Below are positions 13,420 through 52,272 of a stretch of DNA of 64,000 nucleotides, piece after piece. The notes below the pieces were generated by a model. It saw only the letters and a program-made list of their open reading frames with translations. It ran no database searches and was not told the origin of the DNA. The DNA comes from Rhodococcus sp. B7740 (GTDB taxonomy: Bacteria > Actinomycetota > Actinomycetes > Mycobacteriales > Mycobacteriaceae). The position numbers were made by a program, and so were the translations under genes. Positions within the stretch are counted from its first letter, which is position 1. The number at the start of each line of letters is the position of its first letter. The stretch covers positions 1,054,001-1,118,000 of the forward strand of contig NZ_CP010797.1 of NCBI RefSeq assembly GCF_000954115.1, given 5' to 3'.

Positions 13420-17197
<3,778 letters not shown>

Positions 17198-29812: not shown

Positions 29813-31873
<2,061 letters not shown>

Positions 31874-39734: not shown

Positions 39735-42223
39735 TGACCGCAGGCAAGCAGCGACTGTTGGTGGTCGGTAACGGGATGGCCGGCGCCAGGGCCGTCGAAG
39801 AAATCATCAAACGCGACGGCAGTTCGCTGTTCGAGATCACCATGATCGGCGACGAGCCGTACGGCAACTACAACCGAATCATGCTCTCGCACGTGCTGTC
39901 CGGCGAGGCCACCGTCGACGACGAGGATCTGATCCTCAACCCGATGAGCTGGTACAGCGAGAACGGCGTCACGTTGCACGCCGGGGACCGCGCGGTCACG
40001 CTCGACCGGTTCTCCAAGACCGTCGTCTGCGAGAGCGGGCGGTCCGTCGACTACGACGTACTGATCATCGCCACCGGCAGCAACACGTTCTTCCCGAACA
40101 TGGACGGCCTGCGCGAGTCCGACGGCAGGCTGGCGCGCGGCGTGTTCGGCTTCCGCACCATTGCCGACACCAACGGCATGCTGCAGATGGCGCAGTCGCG
40201 TGACGACGTCTCGGCGGTCGTCATCGGCGGCGGACTCCTCGGACTCGAAGCCGCCTACGGCTTGCGCACGCAGGGTCTGGAGGTGAACGTGGTGCACTCC
40301 CCCGGTCACCTGATGAACCAACAGCTCGACGAGCGCGGCGGACGGGTGCTGCGCAACAAGATCGAGTCCCTCGGCGTGGGCGTGCACACCTCCAAGCGGA
40401 CCACGTCGGTGTTGCGATCCGAGGACGGCGTCGTCACGGGCGTCGGGTTCAACGACGGCACCTCGCTCGACGCGGACATGGTCGTGGTCACCGCGGGCAT
40501 TCGTCCCAGTGTCGATTTCGCTCGCGCCGGAGGTCTGGTGATCGAACGAGGAATCGTCGTCGATGACCAATTGCGTTGCGAGGACGAGGGTTCCATCTAT
40601 GCCGTGGGTGAATGCTGTCAGCATCGCGGCGAGGTCTACGGTCTCGTCGCGCCGCTGTGGGAGCAGGCCGTCGTGTTGGCCGACGTGCTCACCGGAGCCG
40701 ATCCCACTGCGGCGTATCACGGTTCGCGGCTGACCACCAAGCTCAAGGTGGCCGGCGTGGACGTCGCCTCGATGGGGATCACCGCGCCCGAACGCGACGA
40801 CGACGAGTTCGTCCAGTTCTACGAGCCGCGCAGTGGCACCTACAAATCGGTGATCGTCCGGAACAACAAGCTGGTCGGTGCCACCCTGCTCGGCGACATC
40901 TCCAAGGCCAACTTCCTGACGCAGGCGTTCGACGAGAAAGTGCCGTTGCCCGACGAGCGCATCAGCATGCTCTTCGACATGGGAACTCCCTCCGCGGCAA
41001 CGGGAGCCGCCGAACTGGCCGACGACGTGCAGGTGTGCAACTGCAACGGTGTCACCAAGGGTGCCATCGTGGCCTGCGTGTACGCGGGCGCGAAGAACCT
41101 GAGCGACGTGACCGCGAAGACCCGTGCGGGCAAAGGGTGCGGATCCTGCAAGGGTCTGGTCCAGGACATCATCGCGTGCGCTGCGGGCGGTGCGGTCGAG
41201 GCCGATCCCACCGCCGACTGGTACGTGCCCTGCATCCCCATGACGAAGCCCGAGCTGATCGACGCCGTTCGGGCGCAGGATCTTCGGGCGGTGTCCGCGG
41301 TGTTCGCGGCGCTGGCGACCGAGGGAACGGAGGACGCCGCCGCCAAGATGCCGTTGGCATCGTTGCTGCGGACGGTGTGGGGCCCGGACTGGGTCGACGA
41401 GCGCGGCGCACTGTTCATCAACGACCGCGTCCACGCCAACATCCAGCGCGACGGCACGTTCTCGGTGGTGCCGCAGATGAAGGGTGGCGTCACCACCCCG
41501 GATCAGTTGCGCAGGATCGCCGACGTCGCGGACAAGTACCACGTTCCGCTGGTCAAGGTCACCGGCGGACAGCGGATCGACCTTCTCGGCATCAAGAAGG
41601 AGGATCTACCGAAGGTGTGGGGCGATCTGGACATGCCCTCCGGCTTCGCCTACGGCAAGAGCATGCGCACGGTGAAAACCTGCGTCGGCAGCGACTTCTG
41701 TCGCTTCGGCCTCGGCGACTCGACAGCCCTGGGCATCGCCCTCGAAGAGCGGTTCCAGGGCCTGGAGACCCCCGCGAAGTTGAAGCTTGCGGTCGCGGGC
41801 TGCCCGCGCAACTGCTCGGAGGCACTGTGCAAGGACTTCGGCGTCGTCTCGGTCGGCGAGGACAAATGGGAGATCTACGTCGGTGGCGCGGCAGGCGCAC
41901 ACATCCGCAAGGGTGATCTACTGGCCACCGTGACAGGGGCCGAGGAGGTTCTCACCGTGGCAGGCAGGTTCATCCAGCACTACCGCGAGAACGCTCAGTG
42001 GCTCGAGCGAACGTACGCATGGGTCCCGCGTGTCGGCCTGGAAGAACTGCAGGCCGTGCTGATCGACGACCGCGACGGCATCGTCGCCGGACTCGACGAG
42101 CGGGTGCAGGCATCGGTGGACGGGTACGTCGACCCCTGGCAGGACCGCGCGGCACCGAAGTCACCGGCCCAGTTCACCCCGTCGCTGCCCCTGCTTCCGC
42201 TCCCACAGGTACCGGTCCGATGA
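39734..42223 (+). CDS. nirB: NAD(P)H-dependent nitrite reductase large subunit NirB
   Basis: An 829-aa cytoplasmic enzyme that reduces nitrite to ammonium. The N-terminal FAD/NAD(P)H oxidoreductase part (LLVVGNGMAGARAVEEI, then VVIGGGLLGLEAAYGL) is followed by a BFD-like [2Fe-2S] segment with C435, C437, C469 and C472. The C-terminal siroheme/[4Fe-4S] reductase part has C650, C656 (CVGSDFC) and C690, C694 (CPRNC). All cofactor ligands are intact. Its stop overlaps the nirD start (ATGA). Confidence 0.96.
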   Translation: MTAGKQRLLVVGNGMAGARAVEEIIKRDGSSLFEITMIGDEPYGNYNRIMLSHVLSGEATVDDEDLILNPMSWYSENGVTLHAGDRAVTLDRFSKTVVCESGRSVDYDVLIIATGSNTFFPNMDGLRESDGRLARGVFGFRTIADTNGMLQMAQSRDDVSAVVIGGGLLGLEAAYGLRTQGLEVNVVHSPGHLMNQQLDERGGRVLRNKIESLGVGVHTSKRTTSVLRSEDGVVTGVGFNDGTSLDADMVVVTAGIRPSVDFARAGGLVIERGIVVDDQLRCEDEGSIYAVGECCQHRGEVYGLVAPLWEQAVVLADVLTGADPTAAYHGSRLTTKLKVAGVDVASMGITAPERDDDEFVQFYEPRSGTYKSVIVRNNKLVGATLLGDISKANFLTQAFDEKVPLPDERISMLFDMGTPSAATGAAELADDVQVCNCNGVTKGAIVACVYAGAKNLSDVTAKTRAGKGCGSCKGLVQDIIACAAGGAVEADPTADWYVPCIPMTKPELIDAVRAQDLRAVSAVFAALATEGTEDAAAKMPLASLLRTVWGPDWVDERGALFINDRVHANIQRDGTFSVVPQMKGGVTTPDQLRRIADVADKYHVPLVKVTGGQRIDLLGIKKEDLPKVWGDLDMPSGFAYGKSMRTVKTCVGSDFCRFGLGDSTALGIALEERFQGLETPAKLKLAVAGCPRNCSEALCKDFGVVSVGEDKWEIYVGGAAGAHIRKGDLLATVTGAEEVLTVAGRFIQHYRENAQWLERTYAWVPRVGLEELQAVLIDDRDGIVAGLDERVQASVDGYVDPWQDRAAPKSPAQFTPSLPLLPLPQVPVR

Positions 42224-42519
42224 GTGTGCCGGTCGGGGCCGTGGAGGACATGACACCCGGCGAGGGACGCGCCTACGTCGTGGACGGCAAGCAGGTTGCC
42301 GTGTTCCTGCTCAGCGACGGCTCGGTGCGGGCGATGGACGCCGTGTGCCCCCACAAGGGCGGGCCACTGGCAGACGGTCAGATCGACGGATCCATCGTCG
42401 TCTGCCCACTGCATCAGTACACGTTCTCGCTCGACGACGGCACCTGCCCCAGCGGCATCGGCTCCGTGCGCACCTACCCCGCCGCAGTGGTGGACGGAAA
42501 AGTGACCGTGGAGCTGTAA
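42220..42519 (+). CDS. nirD: Nitrite reductase small subunit NirD (Rieske type)
   Basis: A 99-aa Rieske-like protein with both metal-binding boxes, CPHKGGPLADG and CPLHQYTF, each supplying Cys and His for a [2Fe-2S] cluster. It pairs with NirB. The ATG at 42220 overlaps the nirB stop; the longer upstream frame lies inside nirB and is not real. Confidence 0.94.
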   Translation: MSVPVGAVEDMTPGEGRAYVVDGKQVAVFLLSDGSVRAMDAVCPHKGGPLADGQIDGSIVVCPLHQYTFSLDDGTCPSGIGSVRTYPAAVVDGKVTVEL

Positions 42520-42549
42520 CCGGCACGGTCGAACGACCGAGACCCTGCG

Positions 42550-42613
42550 CCCCCTGGTCGTTTCGCAGGCTCCACTCCTACCCCCCTGGTCGTTTCGCAG
42601 GCTCCACTCCTAC
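42550..42613. repeat. Two tandem copies of a 32-bp repeat upstream of jetA
   Basis: Copies at 42550-42581 and 42582-42613 appear identical; each runs from CCCCCTGGTCGTTTCGCAG to GGCTCCACTCCTAC. A few bases of a third copy follow and lead straight into the candidate jetA -10. A diverged copy in the opposite orientation lies at 61058-61082, so this is a dispersed element. With no spacers it is not a CRISPR. Confidence 0.9.
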
Positions 42614-42617
42614 CCCC

Positions 42618-42623
42618 TACCCT
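42618..42623 (+). promoter_or_regulatory. Candidate -10 element, leaderless start of the jet operon
   Basis: TACCCT ends 6 nt before the jetA GTG at 42630 and abuts the tandem repeats, so any -35 element or operator would lie inside repeat copy 2. Confidence 0.4.
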
Positions 42624-42629
42624 GTTCCA

Positions 42630-44153
42630 GTGAGCGATTCAGGTGAGGACGCGCGGCGGGGAGTCGCGAACGCGTTCGTGGAGGAAGATCGTCTCGGTCT
42701 GTTCTCCTTCGCCGTTGCCGAGAAGCGATCCGAGTACCTGGCCGTTCTTCGGGCATTCGACACCGCACGAGCCAACTACGTCGTCCTGCTGCACTCAGGA
42801 GACGTGGCCGACCTCATCGCACGCAGCCCGGGTCGGCACGACGCACTGACCACCCTCGACATCGCACCCCTGCTCGATCAGCTCCACGCCTGGGGTCTGC
42901 TCGAACGCAGCTACGACGGCACCCGCGCCGCGACACTCGCCGAGTACCGCAACCGTCACTTCGTCTACCAGTTCGGTCAAGCCGGCTACAAGGCCTACCG
43001 CGCGGTCGAGGACGTGCTCGGAGCCCGCCTGGACGACGCCGCGTTGTCGCGGCTGGTGCTGCCCGAGCTGCTGGCCGACATGCACGAGCTGGCCGAGGCG
43101 AACCGTCAGGCCGACGGCGATCGCATCTACCGCAAGCTCAGCCGACTCGATTCGACGCTGTCGGAGATGGCGACCCGCGCTGCCCACTTCTATCTCGTCC
43201 TCGGTGACCTCGTGCGCACCACCGAGATCACGCCGGAGTCGTTTCTGGTCCACAAGGACGCCCTGCTGACGCACATGCGTGAGTTCAGCTCCGATCTGAC
43301 CCGCTACGCACCGAAGCTCGCCGAGGCGATCGCACTCGTCGAGAGCACCGGGATCGAGGAACTGGTCGAGCGAGCCGCGATCAGCGACGAACGAGTCTTC
43401 CTCACCGTCGCCGAACGCCGCGCCGACTGGACCGATCGCTGGGCGGGCCTGTCGCACTGGTTCGTCTCGGCCGAGTCCGAACTCAGCGAGTCCGAGCGAC
43501 TCCGCGAGGGCACGATGAGCGCTATTGCCGCCGTGCTGTCGCTGCTGCGCCGCGTCACCGAAACCCGCAGGGGTGGCGTGAGCAGGGAAAGCCAACTGCG
43601 GCATCTGGCCGGCTGGTTCGCTGCCACGCCTACCGAGGACAGCGCGCACGCCCTGTTCCATGCCGTGTTCGGTCTCGGCAGGCCCAGACACCTGTCGATG
43701 GTGCATCCCGACGCCGACATCATCTCCACGTCCCGATCGTGGTGGGAGGCACCGCCGGTCGAGATTTCGCGCACCCTGGCCGAGACCGGACGCACCCCCA
43801 CGCCCGGTGTTCCGGGTCGGGTACAGCGCAACGACGGCGGCATCAGACGGCTCAGGGAACAGCAGCTCGAATCGCAGCGATCACGCAGTGCCGCAGCGCA
43901 GTCGCTTGCGTCGACCGGAATCCACGACCGAATTCTGAACGAGCAGGAAACCGAGGTGCTCTTGAGCCTGCTCAACGCTGCGTTGACCGCGCGGGTGCGC
44001 GTGAGCGGTCGCACCTCCGACTCGTCCGGATCGGACAGCGGCGTGCGCCTGACGCTCAGCGACAGCGACCGTTCGACGATCGTGCGGACCAGCAGAGGCC
44101 GATTGCATCTGGACCGCCTCGCGCTCGAGGTCAGCGAGGTGGCACGCCGATGA
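42630..44153 (+). CDS. jetA: Wadjet subunit JetA (DUF2397/TIGR02677 family)
   Basis: A 507-aa protein of the family found at the head of type II Wadjet operons. It is predicted to be the kleisin-like subunit bridging the SMC heads. Seen directly: an alpha-rich N-terminal region (VEEDRLGLFSFAVAEKRSEYLAVLRAF), helical central region with many R/E/L heptad-like stretches, and a charged C-terminal part. The GTG at 42630 (MSDSGEDARRG) was taken because upstream codons of the frame lie inside nirD and the repeats. The stop overlaps jetB (ATGA). Family assignment is from recall of the operon and sequence style. Confidence 0.85.
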   Translation: MSDSGEDARRGVANAFVEEDRLGLFSFAVAEKRSEYLAVLRAFDTARANYVVLLHSGDVADLIARSPGRHDALTTLDIAPLLDQLHAWGLLERSYDGTRAATLAEYRNRHFVYQFGQAGYKAYRAVEDVLGARLDDAALSRLVLPELLADMHELAEANRQADGDRIYRKLSRLDSTLSEMATRAAHFYLVLGDLVRTTEITPESFLVHKDALLTHMREFSSDLTRYAPKLAEAIALVESTGIEELVERAAISDERVFLTVAERRADWTDRWAGLSHWFVSAESELSESERLREGTMSAIAAVLSLLRRVTETRRGGVSRESQLRHLAGWFAATPTEDSAHALFHAVFGLGRPRHLSMVHPDADIISTSRSWWEAPPVEISRTLAETGRTPTPGVPGRVQRNDGGIRRLREQQLESQRSRSAAAQSLASTGIHDRILNEQETEVLLSLLNAALTARVRVSGRTSDSSGSDSGVRLTLSDSDRSTIVRTSRGRLHLDRLALEVSEVARR

Positions 44154-45601
44154 GAGCTCGTGAGATCTCCACTCTCGCACTGGATTCCTACCAGCGGGCC
44201 GCCCGAGTCGCGCTGTCGAACCACCTGGTGACCACGACGTATCCCGACAGGATTGCGCTGCCTCTGCTGCGTCGATGGGCGACCGAACTGCGCGAGGACC
44301 TGCTCGAACTGTTCGGATATCGATTCGAGGTCACCGAGACCACGGCACGTCTGTACCCGGTGATCGATCGGCTCGACGACAGCCAGCCCGCGCGAACGTC
44401 CACCGACCGAATCTTCGATCGCCGCAGATACGCGTATCTGGCACTGGCACTGGCGGCCCTCGGCCGGGCGGGCAACCAGATCACCCTCTCCGAGCTGGCC
44501 GATCATGTTGCGGCAGAAGCAAGTCAAGTAGACGGAGTAGAGCTGACGACCGACCGAGCAAGCGACCGAGACGCGTTCGTCGACGCGATCGGGTGGCTCG
44601 CTACACGCGGAGCCATCGCGTTGGCCGACGGTGATGCGACCGGCTGGGCGAACAACCCGTCCGCAGGCGAGGCCCTTTACGACATCGACCGTCCCGTCGT
44701 CGTCGCCATGTTCCGGCCGCCGCGCGCCGTGCAGCACCTGCGATCGATTCGTGGTCTACTGGCCGGCTCGGACTCCCCGATCGATCCCGAGGATTCGGAC
44801 CCGGGACAGACCGACTCCGGGCGTGAGGCAGATCCGAAGGAAACGCTGCGCGCGGTCCGCCGAGCGTTGGTCGAGCAACCGGTCGTCTATCACGACGATC
44901 TCGACCGGAACGGCCGAGCCGCCCTGGCCGCGTCACGCACTGTTGCGGACGTCGAGTTGCTGACCGGCCTCGTTGCCGAGCGTCGCGCCGAGGGAGTCGC
45001 CCTCATCGACACCTCGGGACGACTGTCGGACCACCGGTTCCCCAGCACCGGAACCATTGCCCAGGTCGCACTGCTGATTGCGGGCGAGATCTCGGACCGA
45101 GTGATCGATCCGGATGCACCCGCGCTGGCAACCCACCCCCTACCCGACGGCGACGCCCTGATCGAGCAGCTGGACGGCGCCATACCCGACGGCGGGATCT
45201 TCGGCGATCTCGCCGAATTCGGGTTCGGTTCCGATGCAACGGCATTCGAAGATGCGGACGAGAAAAAGCTGTATCCGTTGATCGAGGACAGTTGGCTGAC
45301 AACGGTCGTCGACGATCTCGTCGAACGCTTCGGCCGCACCTTCGCAGCTCAGTGGCAGACCGATCGGGATGGACTGCGAGTGCGGGCGATCGCGCTGCTG
45401 CACCGACTTCGACTGATACACAGCGTTTCTGGCGGCGTACTGGTGCTGCCGGTGATCGCGCGCTACCGCGACGTGATGGTCAGCGTGCGTGATCGAACTC
45501 CACAGGACTCACTGTTCGGCACCGAACGAATCACCAGCACCGCAGAAGCACCCAGAACCGCACAGTCCGTCAGTAACGAATCGTCCGAAGTAGAGGCCTG
45601 A
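44150..45601 (+). CDS. jetB: Wadjet subunit JetB (DUF2398/TIGR02678 family)
   Basis: A 483-aa protein starting MRAREISTLALDSYQRAARVALSNHLV, the typical opening of the DUF2398 family. It is predicted to be the KITE-like winged-helix subunit that binds the kleisin. Recognisable patterns are RRRYAYLALALAALG and a C-terminal winged-helix-like region (RVRAIALLHRLRLI). An acidic low-complexity insert (DPEDSDPGQTDSGREADP) lies mid-protein. It overlaps jetA by 4 nt and is followed 4 nt later by jetC. Confidence 0.85.
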   Translation: MRAREISTLALDSYQRAARVALSNHLVTTTYPDRIALPLLRRWATELREDLLELFGYRFEVTETTARLYPVIDRLDDSQPARTSTDRIFDRRRYAYLALALAALGRAGNQITLSELADHVAAEASQVDGVELTTDRASDRDAFVDAIGWLATRGAIALADGDATGWANNPSAGEALYDIDRPVVVAMFRPPRAVQHLRSIRGLLAGSDSPIDPEDSDPGQTDSGREADPKETLRAVRRALVEQPVVYHDDLDRNGRAALAASRTVADVELLTGLVAERRAEGVALIDTSGRLSDHRFPSTGTIAQVALLIAGEISDRVIDPDAPALATHPLPDGDALIEQLDGAIPDGGIFGDLAEFGFGSDATAFEDADEKKLYPLIEDSWLTTVVDDLVERFGRTFAAQWQTDRDGLRVRAIALLHRLRLIHSVSGGVLVLPVIARYRDVMVSVRDRTPQDSLFGTERITSTAEAPRTAQSVSNESSEVEA

Positions 45602-45605
45602 GTAG

Positions 45606-48600
45606 ATGACCGCACACTCGACACGCTTTCGGCCGACACGAGCAGGGATCGTCAACCTGTGGGACTACCGCGATCAGGAGTTCTCGTTCGCCGACGGTCG
45701 CCTGGTACTGCGCGGCCCCAACGGATCCGGCAAGACCAAGGCACTCGAAGTGCTGTTTCCCTTCGTCCTGGACGGCCGCATCGAACCACGCCGACTCAAT
45801 CCCTTTGCGGGAGAGGAGCGGACGATGAAGTCCAACCTGCTCTACCGGGGGCAGGAAAGCGCGCATTCGTACGTGTGGATGGAGTTCGGCCGCGGATCTC
45901 GTGAGGATCCCGAATCGGTGACGGTCGGAATCGGAATGCGGGCGAGCCGCCACAACGACAAGGTGACCCGCTGGTACTTCGTGGCCGACGGCCGAGTGGG
46001 CGTGGACTTCTCGTTGTTGGGTTCCGACGACCGGCCGTTGACGAAGAAGCAGCTCGGTGAGCAACTGGGTACCGACGCCTTGACCGATCGCCCGGTGGAC
46101 TATCGCGCCGCGATCGATGCCCGTATGTTCGGGTTGGGCGCGCAGCGATACGACCAGCTGATCAATCTCATTCTGACGCTTCGCCGCCCGCAATTGGCGA
46201 AGAACCTCGATCCCAAGGGACTCTCGCAGGCGTTGACCGACGGACTGCGTCCGTTGGACGAGCAGCTGGTACTCGAGGCTGCTCGCTCCTTCAGCGACAT
46301 GGAGGAGGTGGGCCGGGCGCTCGAAGGATTGGCGCAGGCCGATCACGCCGCCAGGAACTTCGTTTCGGTGTACTCCAAATACCTTCGGGTACAGACTCGA
46401 TCGGACATCGAGCAGGTCTCACGCCGGCTGGAGGCGGTGACTCACGCGACCACCGCACACTTCGCCGCTGCCGCCCTGAAGGACCGGCGCCTGCTGGAAC
46501 GGGCGGCTGCGGAAACCCGATTCGACGAGGCCGAACGCGCACTGGATCAGGCCGTTGCGGACCGCGAGACTCTGCAGCGCTCGAGCGCATACGAGGGCAA
46601 GCAGCAACTGGACGACCTGGCCGAATCCGCCGCGAAGCTGGAGATCTCGACCGCCCAGCAGGCCGACCGCGCCCGCAAGGCGCACGCCGAACTGGAACAG
46701 CGCACCACCGAGGCGGCGCGTGCCGATGCCGCACTCCGGGACTCCGTCGCCGGGGTTACCCGTGCCGAAGAGGAACTGCAGACCGCCGCCGAGGACGCGG
46801 GTATCGCCTGGACACCACTGCCCGGAACAGCCCGCAGCGATCAGATCGGCACCGCTCTGCGCGGCCATGCCGAGGAACGCGACGGCGACGTGCGGGCGGT
46901 TCGCGAGGCGCTGGGAACCGTCGAGAAGGCGTCGACCGAGCGCGCCCGTGCGGAGAAGGCCGCATCGAAGGCTCGCGAGATGCTCGAGGCGGCGTCGGCT
47001 GCGGTCACCGAGGCCGAGGCGACCGTCGACCTGGAGAAGGCGCAGTTCGCATCGGGACTGCGGGCCTGGTGGTCGAACAATTCGGCGCTGTACTCCTCGG
47101 CGGGTATCACCTCCGCAGCGTTCGAGGCCCTCGATGCCGCGTTGGCGGGCATCGGCGACGACGATGCCCCGAGCCTGGAATCGGTGCTGGCCGACCAGAC
47201 CGCAGACGCGGTCGACACCCTTCGTGCCCGCCAGGCCCAGGCGCACGTGGATGTGTCGACCCGCACGGCCGAGCTGAACTCGCTGCGTGACGAACTGTCT
47301 CTGGTGCGGGCCGAACACGACGACGCGCCGCCGCCGTTCGCGGCACGAACCGACTCTCGCGCCGACCTCGCCGGTGCGCCTCTGTGGCAGCTGGTTCGGT
47401 TTGCCGACTCGGTCTCCCCCGCCGATGCGGCAGGGATCGAATCCGCACTGCAGGCGGCGAATCTGCTCGACGGCTGGATCCACCCGATCGCGGACTTCCC
47501 CGTCGACTCGAGCTCGGAGCAGTATCTGTCGCCGCTGCCGGAGGCCTCGAGGCCGGCCGGAACCACGCTGGCGTCCGTCCTCGAACCCGAGCCCGGCACC
47601 GCCGTTTCCGAATCGCGGATCCTGGACGTCCTGAATTCGGTTGCACTGCAGCAGGATCGAGGTGCCGACTCGAGTGGTGCCGTCTCGATGAGCATGGACG
47701 GTCGGTACCGGCAGGGGGTGCAGCAGGGCCGACACATCAAGACCGATGCCGAGTACATCGGCGCGACGGCCCGTGCACGACGCCGAGAGCAACGGATCAC
47801 CGAACTCGGTGCCGCGATCGATACCGCGACAGCCGCACTGGATGCCGCGGCGGCCGACGAGCGAACTGCCCGCGAATCGGTACAGGCGCTGGCCGCGGCC
47901 GCCAAGCAACTGCCTCGTGTCTCGGCCATCGTGAAAGCGCAACGCGCCGTCACCGCCGCCGCAGGGGCGCTGCGCACCTCGACGCAGAGTTCGGCAGCAG
48001 CGGACCGAGAGTTCGACCAGGCGATCGCAGACCTGTCCGCGAAGGAGAAGCAGCTGCGTACCGTCGCCGTGGCTCACCGCACCCCACACATCGGTCGAGA
48101 CATCGATGCCCTCGCCGCGGCGATCAGGCATTTCGAGCACCAGGGCTCGGTGGTGATCCGCAAGCGCGGCGATCACACGCGCGAAGCAGAACGCGCCCGC
48201 GAAGCAACCAACCGACTCGAAGAAGCGAGTGGCCTGGCCGAGGAGCTCGCCGAGGAAGCCGCGATCGCCGACGAGAACTACCGACAGCAGGTGCAACGCC
48301 TCGAGCTCCTCAGCGAGAAGCTCGGTGCCACCGCCGAACAGATCGACACCGATCTCGAGAACGCACGCGAACGCATCGAGAAGTGCCGCGCCGAGCAGCG
48401 GGCCGCACGCAAAGCGGACAAGGAAGCAGGCGAAGCGATCGGCAAGGCCGAGGGGGCCTGCAACACAGCACTGGAAAGCCTGCGCGGTGCCGTCACCGAA
48501 ACCCTGGGTGACGCCGTGCGGCTCGCGCCCTACGCTCGCAAGGACCTTCTCGGCATTCTCGGCGTCCACGAGGCATACACCTGGCCGGCGAGCGACTCGG

Positions 48601-49790
48601 CGTGGTTGAGCGTGGAGCAGATTCTGTATCGAGTGCAGCAGGCCGAGGGTCCCGACGACGAGGTTCCGGTGCTTCCGCCCGTCGTGCGCGCTCTGCATTC
48701 GGCGCTCGACGCAGCGACGGCGTCGGTGAAGGTCAGTGACTCGAGCCGAAAGTCGACCCGGACAGCCCTGACGAGTGCGCTGCAGGAGTTCGACTCGCAA
48801 CTCGCTGCGTCGGGTCAGGACTATCGACTGCAGTGGGATGCGCCGGACGGTTTGACCGTCGTCCGTGTGCAGGACGAGCAGGGCTACTCGTCGGTCGGAG
48901 ATTTCGCCGACCGAATCGGTGCGGCGAGAGCCGATCAGGAGTTGTTGCTGACCGAGCAGGAGCGCCGAATTCTCGAAGATGCGTTGCTGACCGGCCTGGC
49001 GCAGCAGATTCACGAGCGGACCGCCGATGCGCGCGAGCTGATCGCGCAGATGTCCGCCGAAATGAAGCAGCGCCGCATGTCCTCGGGCAACACGATCGGT
49101 GTGCACTGGGTGCTCGCGGACAACCTCGACGACGGTGCCAGGGCGGTGTCCAAACTGCTCGACCGCGACGCCTCGGCGTTGAACCAGGACGATCTGGCCG
49201 CGATGCGAGCCCACTTCGCGTCGGAGATCAGGATCGCTCGCGCGGCGCATCCGGAACGGTCCTACCCCGAGATCCTCTCCACGACACTGGACTATCGCCG
49301 CTGGCGCGTGTTCGCCTTCACCCTCATCAGCGGCGACGGCAACGAGGATCGTCTCACCGTCGCACGCCACAGTGCGCTCTCGGGCGGTGAGCAGTCGGTG
49401 TCGCTGCATCTGCCCCTGTTCGCCGCTGCGCACGTGATGCTCTCGTCCGCCGATCCACATTCACCTCGGCTCCTGGCGCTGGACGAGGCATTCGCCGGAG
49501 TAGACGACAACGGCCGCAGCGAATTGCTCGGCCTGAGTGTGCAATTCGATCTCGATCTGTTCATGACCGGATACGACCTGTGGATCACCTACGGTGACGT
49601 GCCCGGTTGCGCGCACTACGACCTGGCGCATTCGGCAGCCGAGAACACCGTCAGCGCAGCTCTTCTGGTGTGGGAGAACGGCGAACTGTTCGCCGAGCAC
49701 GACGGCACCGACCTCGCGGCCGCACTCGGGTCACCGCTGACACGCCGTGTGCCGACCCGAACCGAAGGTGGGCTGGAGTTTGACCGGTAA
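45606..49790 (+). CDS. jetC: Wadjet SMC-like ATPase JetC (TIGR02680 family)
   Basis: A 1394-aa SMC-type ATPase. The Walker A motif GPNGSGKT is at residues 37-44, the ABC signature LSGGEQ at 1258-1263, and Walker B LLALDEAF at about 1289-1296 (D1293, E1294), so both halves of the ATPase head are intact. Long Ala/Glu/Arg-rich stretches around 260-460 and 760-960 form the coiled-coil arms, with a globular middle segment. In Wadjet systems this motor extrudes DNA loops and detects small circular DNA. The frame is open end to end with no disruption. Confidence 0.93.
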   Translation: MTAHSTRFRPTRAGIVNLWDYRDQEFSFADGRLVLRGPNGSGKTKALEVLFPFVLDGRIEPRRLNPFAGEERTMKSNLLYRGQESAHSYVWMEFGRGSREDPESVTVGIGMRASRHNDKVTRWYFVADGRVGVDFSLLGSDDRPLTKKQLGEQLGTDALTDRPVDYRAAIDARMFGLGAQRYDQLINLILTLRRPQLAKNLDPKGLSQALTDGLRPLDEQLVLEAARSFSDMEEVGRALEGLAQADHAARNFVSVYSKYLRVQTRSDIEQVSRRLEAVTHATTAHFAAAALKDRRLLERAAAETRFDEAERALDQAVADRETLQRSSAYEGKQQLDDLAESAAKLEISTAQQADRARKAHAELEQRTTEAARADAALRDSVAGVTRAEEELQTAAEDAGIAWTPLPGTARSDQIGTALRGHAEERDGDVRAVREALGTVEKASTERARAEKAASKAREMLEAASAAVTEAEATVDLEKAQFASGLRAWWSNNSALYSSAGITSAAFEALDAALAGIGDDDAPSLESVLADQTADAVDTLRARQAQAHVDVSTRTAELNSLRDELSLVRAEHDDAPPPFAARTDSRADLAGAPLWQLVRFADSVSPADAAGIESALQAANLLDGWIHPIADFPVDSSSEQYLSPLPEASRPAGTTLASVLEPEPGTAVSESRILDVLNSVALQQDRGADSSGAVSMSMDGRYRQGVQQGRHIKTDAEYIGATARARRREQRITELGAAIDTATAALDAAAADERTARESVQALAAAAKQLPRVSAIVKAQRAVTAAAGALRTSTQSSAAADREFDQAIADLSAKEKQLRTVAVAHRTPHIGRDIDALAAAIRHFEHQGSVVIRKRGDHTREAERAREATNRLEEASGLAEELAEEAAIADENYRQQVQRLELLSEKLGATAEQIDTDLENARERIEKCRAEQRAARKADKEAGEAIGKAEGACNTALESLRGAVTETLGDAVRLAPYARKDLLGILGVHEAYTWPASDSAWLSVEQILYRVQQAEGPDDEVPVLPPVVRALHSALDAATASVKVSDSSRKSTRTALTSALQEFDSQLAASGQDYRLQWDAPDGLTVVRVQDEQGYSSVGDFADRIGAARADQELLLTEQERRILEDALLTGLAQQIHERTADARELIAQMSAEMKQRRMSSGNTIGVHWVLADNLDDGARAVSKLLDRDASALNQDDLAAMRAHFASEIRIARAAHPERSYPEILSTTLDYRRWRVFAFTLISGDGNEDRLTVARHSALSGGEQSVSLHLPLFAAAHVMLSSADPHSPRLLALDEAFAGVDDNGRSELLGLSVQFDLDLFMTGYDLWITYGDVPGCAHYDLAHSAAENTVSAALLVWENGELFAEHDGTDLAAALGSPLTRRVPTRTEGGLEFDR

Positions 49791-51018
49791 CAGCGAATGG
49801 CGAGGCAGCGCCGAACTGGCTGCACTGCTCGATGCGGCACGAAAGAAGTTGGAGTCCAACTGGCTTCGCGTCGGTGGCAACATCACCGTCGACCTGAGCG
49901 AGGCCCCGGAACTGTGGCGTCTGTGCAGCGCGATCTCTCGGTCCAATTCCAGTCTGCATTCGCGAGCGCGTAGCGCCAGACTCGACCTCGAGCGGTTCGA
50001 CGCGTGGCTGAGCCATCCGCTCAACGGTGGCCTCGGACTGATCGACACCCTCTCTCGGCAGGCTCCGTTGCATGACAAGAAGCAGATCGCAGCCGACAAG
50101 GCTCGGGTACGTGCCGAGGCACTCGAGCGGGCCAGGGAGGTTCTCGGTGGCGGGACCGATCGCGAGTGGGTCGAGTACTGGATCGCCTCCTTGCTCAATC
50201 AGGACGGCACTCTCGGGGGCCGCGTCGCCGTCGATGCGCTCGCGGTGGCGACACAGGTCCTGGCGCTGCTTCCGGTCGACGGGATGTCGCTGACCGAACT
50301 CGCGGAACTGGCCTGCGGTGATACGAAGGCGCTCTCGGGCGGCGGTGCCCCGAAGCTCGTCCTCGACGCTCTGTCGTTGCGCGAGAACGTGCCTCGGCCC
50401 GTCGATCCGGTGGGCATCAGGGCATTGTGGGAGACCGCGGGCGTGTCGGTCGACTCGGTCTCCAGCCGGGTGCTGGTGCTCGGCTACCGCGTCGACGAGG
50501 CCCACACGGTGGCTCGTTGGCTGAACGACGCAGCGGACGTGGGCATCCCCTTCCCCGTCACCGTGGACATGCTCTCGCGCGGCCCGCTCACCAACAGCTC
50601 GTCCACAGTGTTCGTCTGCGAGAACGTCGCCGTGCTCGCCGCCGCAGCCCGCACCCTCGGGTCGAACTGCGCGAGCCTGATCTGCACCGACGGTCAACCC
50701 TCCGCAGCGGTGCACCGGCTGCTGGCCTCCCGAGCGCCCGGCACCACGATTCGGTGGCGAGCCGACTTCGACTGGGCCGGAGTGCAGATGGTGACCCGAG
50801 CCATCTCCCGATACGACGCGGTGCCGTGGCGGATGGACGTCGATTCCTATCGACGCGCACTCGATGCACGCAATTCCGAACCGCTGAAGGGCCATCGAAC
50901 GGACAGCCCGTGGGATCCGGAACTCGCTGCCGCACTGCGCGACTCGGGCCGAGCAGTCACGGAGGATCGACTGATCCCGGATCTGCTGACGGATCTGCGG
51001 CTGGGACGTGCGACCTAG
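49768..51018 (+). CDS. jetD: Wadjet nuclease JetD (DUF2399/TIGR02679, toprim)
   Basis: A 416-aa protein with a C-terminal toprim domain like that of topoisomerase VI subunit A. The proposed metal-binding residues are Glu285 in FVCENVAVL and Asp333/Asp335 in RADFDWAG. In Wadjet it cuts the circular plasmid once the SMC motor stalls. The start is uncertain: GTG 49768 (chosen), GTG 49747 or TTG 49780, all overlapping the jetC stop at 49788-49790. The gene ends 12 bp before the convergent mshC end. Confidence 0.88.
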   Translation: MGWSLTGNSEWRGSAELAALLDAARKKLESNWLRVGGNITVDLSEAPELWRLCSAISRSNSSLHSRARSARLDLERFDAWLSHPLNGGLGLIDTLSRQAPLHDKKQIAADKARVRAEALERAREVLGGGTDREWVEYWIASLLNQDGTLGGRVAVDALAVATQVLALLPVDGMSLTELAELACGDTKALSGGGAPKLVLDALSLRENVPRPVDPVGIRALWETAGVSVDSVSSRVLVLGYRVDEAHTVARWLNDAADVGIPFPVTVDMLSRGPLTNSSSTVFVCENVAVLAAAARTLGSNCASLICTDGQPSAAVHRLLASRAPGTTIRWRADFDWAGVQMVTRAISRYDAVPWRMDVDSYRRALDARNSEPLKGHRTDSPWDPELAAALRDSGRAVTEDRLIPDLLTDLRLGRAT

Positions 51019-51030
51019 TTCGGGACGAGA

Positions 51031-52272
51031 TCAGCGCAGCGCAACCCCGAGCAGAGCATCGACCGCATCGGCGAAGGCACCGGGCGCGCCCGCATCCGAT
51101 CCGCCGCGTTCGACTGCGAAACTCGCCCACGCGTCGAGCGCATCGAGAGCCTTGGGGGTGTCCAGATCGTCGGCCAGGTGCTGCCGCAACCGGTTGATCA
51201 CGTCGTCGGCCGATGCAGCGCTGTCGAGCGCCGCGGCCCGACGCCACAGTGCGAGCCGGGTGTGAGCGCGTTCGAGAACCTCGTCGGACCACGGTCGATC
51301 CTGGCGGTAGTGGCCGGCGAGCAGACCGAGTCGGACAGCTGCGGGGTCGACGTTCTCGGCGCGGAGCTTGGAGACGAACACCAGATTGCCGCGGCTCTTG
51401 GACATCTTCTCGCCGTCGAGCCCGATCATCCCGGTGTGCACGTAGTGCCGGGCGAAGCGCGGATCACCGGTCGCCGCCTCGGCGTGCGCGGCCGAGAACT
51501 CGTGGTGCGGGAAGATCAGATCGCTTCCGCCGCCCTGAATGTCGAAGCCGGTACCGATGCGGTTGAGCGCGATGGCTGCGCATTCGATGTGCCACCCGGG
51601 CCGCCCCGGACCCCACGGCGACGGCCACGACGGCTCGCCCGGCCGTACTGCGCGCCAGAGCAACGCATCGAGTGGATCCCGCTTACCGACCCGATCGGGG
51701 TCGCCCCCGCGTTCGGCGAAGAACGTATCCATCGTGGCTCGGTCGTAACCGGACTCGTAGCCGAACTGCTCGGTGGCATCGGCACGGAAGTACACATCAG
51801 GGTATTGGGCGTCGTCGACGACATACGCCGCACCGGACGCGACCAGCTTCTCCACCAGTTCGACGACCTCGTCGACGGACTCGACAGCACCGATGTAGTC
51901 GCGCGGAGGGAGCACCCGGAGCGCTTCCATGTCGGCGCGGAAGAGTTCGATCTCACGAGCTCCCAGATCGCGCCAGTCCTCGCCGTCGCGGTCGGCGCGC
52001 TCGAACAGTGGATCGTCGACATCGGTGACGTTCTGCACGTAGTGCACGTCCGTGCCCGCATCCCGCCACAGCCGGTTGATCAGGTCGAACGTCAGGTACG
52101 TCGCCGCGTGCCCGAGGTGGGTGGCGTCGTACGGGGTTATTCCACAGACGTACATCCGAGCCGTCGAACCGGGGGTGACGGGACGGACCTGGCGGTCGGC
52201 GGTGTCGAACAATCGAAGCGCTGGACCCTGTCCGGGAATTGTCGGGATCTCCGGGCTCGACCAAGAATGCAT
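51031..52272 (-). CDS. mshC: Mycothiol ligase MshC
   Basis: A 413-aa class-I cysteinyl-tRNA-synthetase-like enzyme that joins cysteine to GlcN-Ins with ATP in mycothiol synthesis. A Zn-ligand Cys43 lies in [10 protein letters not shown], the HIGH-type motif is HLGH at 52-55, and KMSKS is at 289-293. The absence of a long tRNA-binding C-terminus distinguishes it from CysS. It starts at the ATG 52270-52272, 7 nt after a TAGGCT. It marks the return to mycobacteria-like gene order. Confidence 0.95.

Follow-up and report, generated by a model that had tools for sequence, protein, structure and literature searches.

We found that four adjacent genes in the window (the whole 64,000-nucleotide stretch of Rhodococcus sp. 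B7740 DNA that was analysed) very probably make up a type II Wadjet system (JetABCD), intact and chromosomal, of the loop-extruding and circle-cutting kind, to which we add, by inference, a use of JetABC that does not depend on JetD. The type II Wadjet reading is based on gene content, gene order, intact motifs, the fold class of JetD and conservation throughout the genus. Taken by itself, the window operon is one further type II Wadjet. More interesting than the operon itself is that close relatives keep the motor genes at the same place with the cutting gene apparently lost. Specifically, at one locus of this genus 29 species have the full JetABCD, and 8 species have JetABC with no JetD.

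The genes form one tight operon on the plus strand in the A-B-C-D order of type II Wadjets, and they occupy the coordinates that the first-pass annotation had given for them (42630..51018):

jetA, 42630-44153, plus strand, kleisin-type subunit, DUF2397, 507 aa, GTG start
jetB, 44150-45601, plus strand, KITE-type subunit, DUF2398, 483 aa, ATG start
jetC, 45606-49790, plus strand, SMC ATPase, 1394 aa, ATG start
jetD, 49768-51018, plus strand, Toprim nuclease, DUF3323 and DUF2399, 416 aa, GTG start

The spacings also agree with that annotation, with a 4-nt overlap of jetA and jetB, a 4-nt gap between jetB and jetC and a 23-nt overlap of jetC and jetD. A second in-frame start of jetD is possible at GTG 49747, which would give a protein of 423 aa. 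All four frames of the window copy are free of frameshifts and internal stops, as had been claimed. Regarding the assignment to Jet families, the Pfam check that the first-pass annotation had proposed was run and passed by all four proteins, with JetA matching PF09660 (463.6 bits, cut-off 28.5), JetB matching PF09661 (223.9 bits, cut-off 26.9; this score and the PADLOC score of JetB were computed on 44147-45601, one codon longer than 44150-45601), JetC matching PF13558 (SbcC_Walker_B; 71.1 bits, cut-off 27) and JetD matching both PF09664 (142.7 bits, cut-off 23.4) and PF11796 (87.6 bits, cut-off 26.6). The label type II-like is likewise upheld by the type II Jet profiles of PADLOC, which span almost the full length of all four proteins (PDLC00536 JetA2, 609 bits; PDLC00545 JetB2, 708 bits; PDLC00553 JetC2, 1434 bits over residues 2-1369; JetD2, 371 bits). 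The NCBIfam models TIGR02677, TIGR02678 and TIGR02680 also exceed their cut-offs, and JetD is a near miss for TIGR02679 (186.4 bits, below the cut-off of 196), which to our knowledge is a naming model outside the published definition of type II Wadjets. The type I Wadjet family JetD_C (PF09983) has no match anywhere in the window's genome. Families, order and motifs are thus those of known type II Wadjets, and the earlier statement that this is not a new class was correct.

No sigma-70-like promoter or terminator was found upstream of jetA, and an Rfam search of 42000-51300 gave no match. Just upstream of jetA, at 42550-42617, there are two tandem copies of the 32-bp unit of a dispersed repeat with the core GGTCGTTYCGCAGGCTCCACTCCT. 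With up to 2 mismatches allowed, this repeat occurs 85 times in the genome, as against 0 times for the reversed control, and it has matches in 33 of the 37 genus genomes, with between 0 and 4 copies located within 1.5 kb upstream of jetA across the 37 genomes. It lies between predicted frames at 5 of 7 places and inside a stop-to-stop frame at the other 2.

The ATPase motifs of JetC are located exactly where they had been reported (Walker A GPNGSGKT at 37-44, signature LSGGEQ at 1258-1263 and Walker B LLALDEAF at 1289-1296), and the JetC of PDB entry 9qe0 matches the window JetC with an E value of 3.2e-73. In JetD, residues E285, N286, D333, D335 and E399 are invariant in 36 of 36 aligned JetD sequences, which confirms that the Toprim acidic residues E285, D333 and D335 are intact; we take these three residues to be the catalytic set by the general Toprim motif. 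A sequence search of the PDB with JetD matched no JetD chain. An AlphaFold model of JetD, built from 10 sequences (the window and nine named genome loci), has a mean pLDDT of 64, with the first 75 residues below 50 and ten-residue means of 65-95 in residues 231-410. When this model was compared with the PDB by Foldseek, the top targets were 8b7f (C. glutamicum MksG) and two chains of 7til (P. aeruginosa JetD), and these are the only targets at E <= 0.001 among 85 matches at E <= 10, which supports a JetD-like nuclease fold. The TM-scores to 8b7f and 7til are low (0.23-0.36), which may be expected given the poorly modelled N-terminal part.

Reconstituted Wadjets, a type II complex among them, are described as extruding circular DNA by means of JetABC and so triggering JetD (PMC12647877; review PMC10586767), and by analogy the most likely function of the window JetABCD would be the destruction of small circular plasmids. 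In such a scheme the SMC ATPase JetC would form a DNA loop-extruding motor together with JetA and JetB. On small circular DNA, extrusion would run to completion and thereby activate the Toprim nuclease JetD, which would then cut the circle, and very large or linear DNA would escape. All three activities proposed for the window operon, namely extrusion, cleavage and plasmid restriction, are thus carried over from the Wadjets that have been studied.

The operon is a resident, fixed chromosomal locus rather than a mobile island. The window is part of a single-contig genome of 5.34 Mb whose host belongs to the same genus as Rhodococcoides fascians, and 15 of the 16 loci that hold the nearest named relatives of jetD are from strains of Rhodococcus or Rhodococcoides fascians. 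Upstream of the operon are metH, PAC2 and nirBD, and downstream are a class I tRNA-synthetase-like gene, which we take to be mshC, and a histidine phosphatase gene. Every one of the 37 genus genomes has a JetA match, and each of the 36 relatives has mshC on the same contig at most about 1.1 kb beyond jetC or jetD, as does the window (37 of 37). Outside the genus, jetABC is found near the same metH-PAC2 pair at a distance of about 2 kb in G096 and 9 kb in G248 (both of genus g24) and of about 11 kb in G284 (genus g28). In G284, nirBD is located between jetABC and metH-PAC2, and mshC is about 6 kb past jetC. The spacing of PAC2 and mshC was also looked at in five family members without JetA, where it is about 3.4, 0.5, 2.0 and 0.4 kb in G061, G109, G088 and G116, respectively, and where G062 has no PAC2 within 16.6 kb beyond mshC.

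Other defence genes near by were sought with PADLOC in ten other long frames out of the 92 frames of at least 250 aa listed, and only partial matches were obtained. These are partial helicase matches (HamB, Brx) of the frame at 14423-17197 and a partial mad2 match of the frame at 29813-31099, both of which are presumably housekeeping genes. Two genomes of the genus carry a broken jetA next to full-length jetB, jetC and jetD, the jetA frame being interrupted by a stop in G021 (L057) and split in G008 (L044). Unless these are assembly errors, a broken jetA in 2 of the 29 jetD-bearing genomes implies that the system is dispensable. Wadjet is described as common in Rhodococcus, where 73% of 97 genomes are reported to have Wadjet and an RM system plus Eleos or PD-T4-3 (PMC10482375).

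Analysis of the same locus in the genus revealed that PF09664 is present in 29 of the 37 genomes, with a jetD of 408-427 aa in every one of them, and absent from the remaining eight (G002, G005, G010, G015, G016, G022, G034 and G036). In these eight genomes jetC and mshC are on one contig and 62-1100 bp apart. A hidden divergent jetD in this gap was searched for with a profile made from 36 JetD sequences, which gave nothing convincing at the 8 loci (E 0.34 in G005 and no match at E 1 in the other seven, as compared with E values below 1e-120 at loci with jetD). A relocated jetD was also rejected, as neither PF09664 nor PF09983 is found anywhere in the eight genomes; the single occurrence of PF09983 in the genus is in G023. 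Separately, G016 has a second, distant type II jetABC (L073; 28% JetA identity) that is also without jetD.

Loci of this type extend beyond the genus, as G284, G248b and G096, from two other genera, likewise have jetABC without jetD. In an order-wide search of 298 genomes, JetA was found in 75 at E 1e-10 and PF09664 in 71 at E 0.001, 69 of them above the cut-off. Among 95 JetA loci there are 67 with jetD in position, a count in which one jetD of G249 serves two jetA, and 28 without. Examination of sequence at 20 of the 28 loci found jetA, jetB and jetC with no JetD match at E 0.01, bearing in mind that a divergent jetD could escape the profile at loci distant from the window. The rest are G324a with a weak JetD match (48 bits), G060 with only a jetA fragment, G323a where the contig edge falls inside jetC, and five loci (G117, G131, G134, G145 and G209) that may be contig edges. 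A different arrangement was seen at type II loci of G146, G226, G248 (L096), G249, G257 and G273, where a JetD match is located about 0.5 kb before jetA. This suggests a D-A-B-C order, which was read in the sequence for G248 only and is ambiguous for G249, whose jetD also stands behind a different jetA.

In the genus, jetABC without jetD is under purifying selection. The eight jetD-less genomes have a jetA of 496-515, a jetB of 436-459 and a jetC of 1371-1392 codons, with the three JetC motifs present. At the loci of G284, G248b and G096, jetABC is likewise of full length and keeps the ATPase motifs; a gap at Walker A in the aligned row of G248b is due to the start chosen, and the motif is there in the frame itself. 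Pairwise Nei-Gojobori values of dN/dS, which are rough as some dS exceed 1, are 0.082-0.132 for jetC in 8 pairs where both genomes lack jetD, 0.068 in the mixed pair G003-G010 and 0.035-0.091 in 14 jetD-bearing pairs. The corresponding mshC values in the same pair sets are 0.031-0.091, 0.059 and 0.022-0.110, and jetD itself has values of 0.05-0.15 in the 14 pairs. Constraint on jetC in the absence of jetD is therefore strong and somewhat looser, with dN/dS about twice that of the jetD-bearing pairs. The highest values for jetA (0.185) and jetB (0.226) are from the closest pair, G022-G036, which has few changes. Neutral simulation at 10-40% change per site gave a mean of 16-60 in-frame stops, and none of the 2000 replicates (500 at each of four settings) kept the frames open. 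At the 405 JetC positions that are identical in all jetD-bearing rows, three outgroups included, seven of the 11 jetD-less rows were scored and show 0-18 changes. As controls, four crown rows, each omitted from its own definition, change 0-4 of 405-409 positions, and outgroup G115 changes 71 of 476. A JetD-docking patch that decays after loss of jetD was looked for by eye and none was seen, the altered conserved positions being scattered.

The fact that relatives keep jetABC at the same locus, under selection and without jetD, suggests that the JetABC motor has a use without cutting. This use is not that of a stand-in for a lost Smc, as none of the 37 genus genomes lacks Smc. Given a canonical Smc in all 37, a solo JetABC would be an additional SMC complex, as is the case for MksBEF. 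A more far-reaching explanation, which falls a little short of being probable, is that JetABC has its own JetD-independent job, either in chromosome organisation or in non-cutting plasmid silencing, and that jetD was lost repeatedly at one fixed locus, in which case an intact JetABCD such as that of the window would be dual-purpose.

A different history, which we regard as unlikely, is that the ancestor of these genera had no jetD and that the genus crown regained it once, as opposed to a history of several losses. The minimum of 3 state changes fits a history of regain as well as one of loss, and the JetC tree makes the rows without jetD paraphyletic with respect to the crown. However, in both the JetD and the JetC trees the crown stands beside the same outgroups (G115, G042, G050, G215 and G239), all of which have jetD, and a regained jetD would have had to insert directly behind jetC. 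The JetABC tree (44 rows) calls for at least 3 jetD changes. The mshC tree calls for 3 among the labelled rows, a count that leaves out G323, G062 and G268, and for 5 if these three are scored as not lacking jetD. This tree unites the seven basal rows in a clade (100/99) and nests G010 within a crown that otherwise carries jetD (99/95). The position of g24 varies, as its JetABC joins the basal genus rows in one Jet tree and is nearer to the crown in another, and the mshC tree separates g24 from the genus. Some transfer or rooting error is therefore possible. As the outgroups are the same in the JetD tree as in the JetC tree, we read the two as favouring common descent with probable repeated loss of jetD over one loss plus one regain.

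It is also decidedly unlikely that another nuclease, acting in trans or encoded by a neighbour gene, replaces JetD so that JetABC would be a defence sensor throughout the family. Congruent with such a replacement is a DUF559 (restriction-endonuclease-like) gene that lies between jetC and mshC in two genomes:

G036, L072:5144-5977, strand opposite to jetC, DUF559 gene
G034, L070:12050-12781, strand opposite to jetC, DUF559 gene

The same can be said of the conserved positions, as the seven jetD-less rows scored retain more than 93% of those identical in all jetD-bearing rows, and inspection by eye revealed no obvious patch of loss. On the other hand, inspection by eye showed DUF559 divided over two frames in G022 and reduced to fragments in G002 and G005, and did not reveal it in G010, G015 and G016. 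Both JetD families are, as described above, missing from all 8 genomes, and no common neighbourhood gene was seen by eye at 12 jetD-less loci. A common replacement gene was rejected on similar grounds, with G034 and G036 having DUF559, G016 a glyoxalase-like frame and G010 and G015 nothing when inspected by eye. An AfsR-type regulator, which follows the solo jetABC at a distance of 87 nt in the three genomes of g39 that were read, was dropped as a general partner as it is not general among jetD-less loci; by similarity it is found at 5 of 7 g39 loci (L102, L103, L104, L106 and L109) and distantly in G284. Two of the g39 genomes with this regulator, G132 and G202, have another jetA with jetD about 6-7 kb away. 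Finally, that the jetD-less jetABC are decaying relics and the window operon a defence system with no other role is improbable, for although jetC has a dN/dS of about 0.12 without jetD versus about 0.065 with it and jetA is broken in two jetD-bearing genomes, the 8 genus copies all retain their full length and their ATPase motifs, the dN/dS of jetC stays far below 1 at dS values up to 1.3, and neutral simulation left no open set in its 2000 replicates.

The window operon and the proposed JetD-independent role of JetABC can be compared with several known systems. PDB entries 9qe0 and 9qe1 are probably nvJET, the type II Wadjet of Neobacillus vireti, judging from their molecule names and the title of the cited paper. 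The window JetC and JetA have homologues in 9qe0 (phmmer, 250.6 bits for JetC and 58.2 bits for JetA) that are distant in sequence, and a JetD chain was not matched by sequence. MksBEFG of C. glutamicum, a type I Wadjet, shares the nuclease fold (JetD model versus 8b7f, E 2.4e-5); it is of the other subtype, the one whose JetD_C family is missing from the window's genome. MksBEF of Pseudomonas aeruginosa is without a nuclease, as are the jetD-less jetABC. Unlike MksBEF, which we take not to be type II, the jetD-less loci described here are type II and are located where related species have an intact JetABCD.

nvJET is reported to cleave naked circular DNA (PMC12647877). EptABCD of Mycobacterium smegmatis, which we liken to the window operon by its description, is also an actinobacterial JetABCD homologue, and its null mutant is described as better at plasmid uptake (PMC10586767, PMC12287153, PMC10123090). 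A review proposes that MukBEF and MksBEF derive from Wadjet, MksBEF by way of JetD loss, and describes chromosome activity of any JetABCD system as undocumented (PMC10586767). Among the papers listed by our literature search, this review was the one that spoke of JetD loss. No report of a jetD-less type II JetABC was found in that search, outside of which lay most subscription papers and all preprints. A type II SMC core that is retained without its nuclease is a parallel to the printed proposal for MksBEF. With JetABCD and JetABC at one locus of one genus, and a canonical Smc in every member, the transition from a Wadjet to an MksBEF-type complex becomes directly testable.
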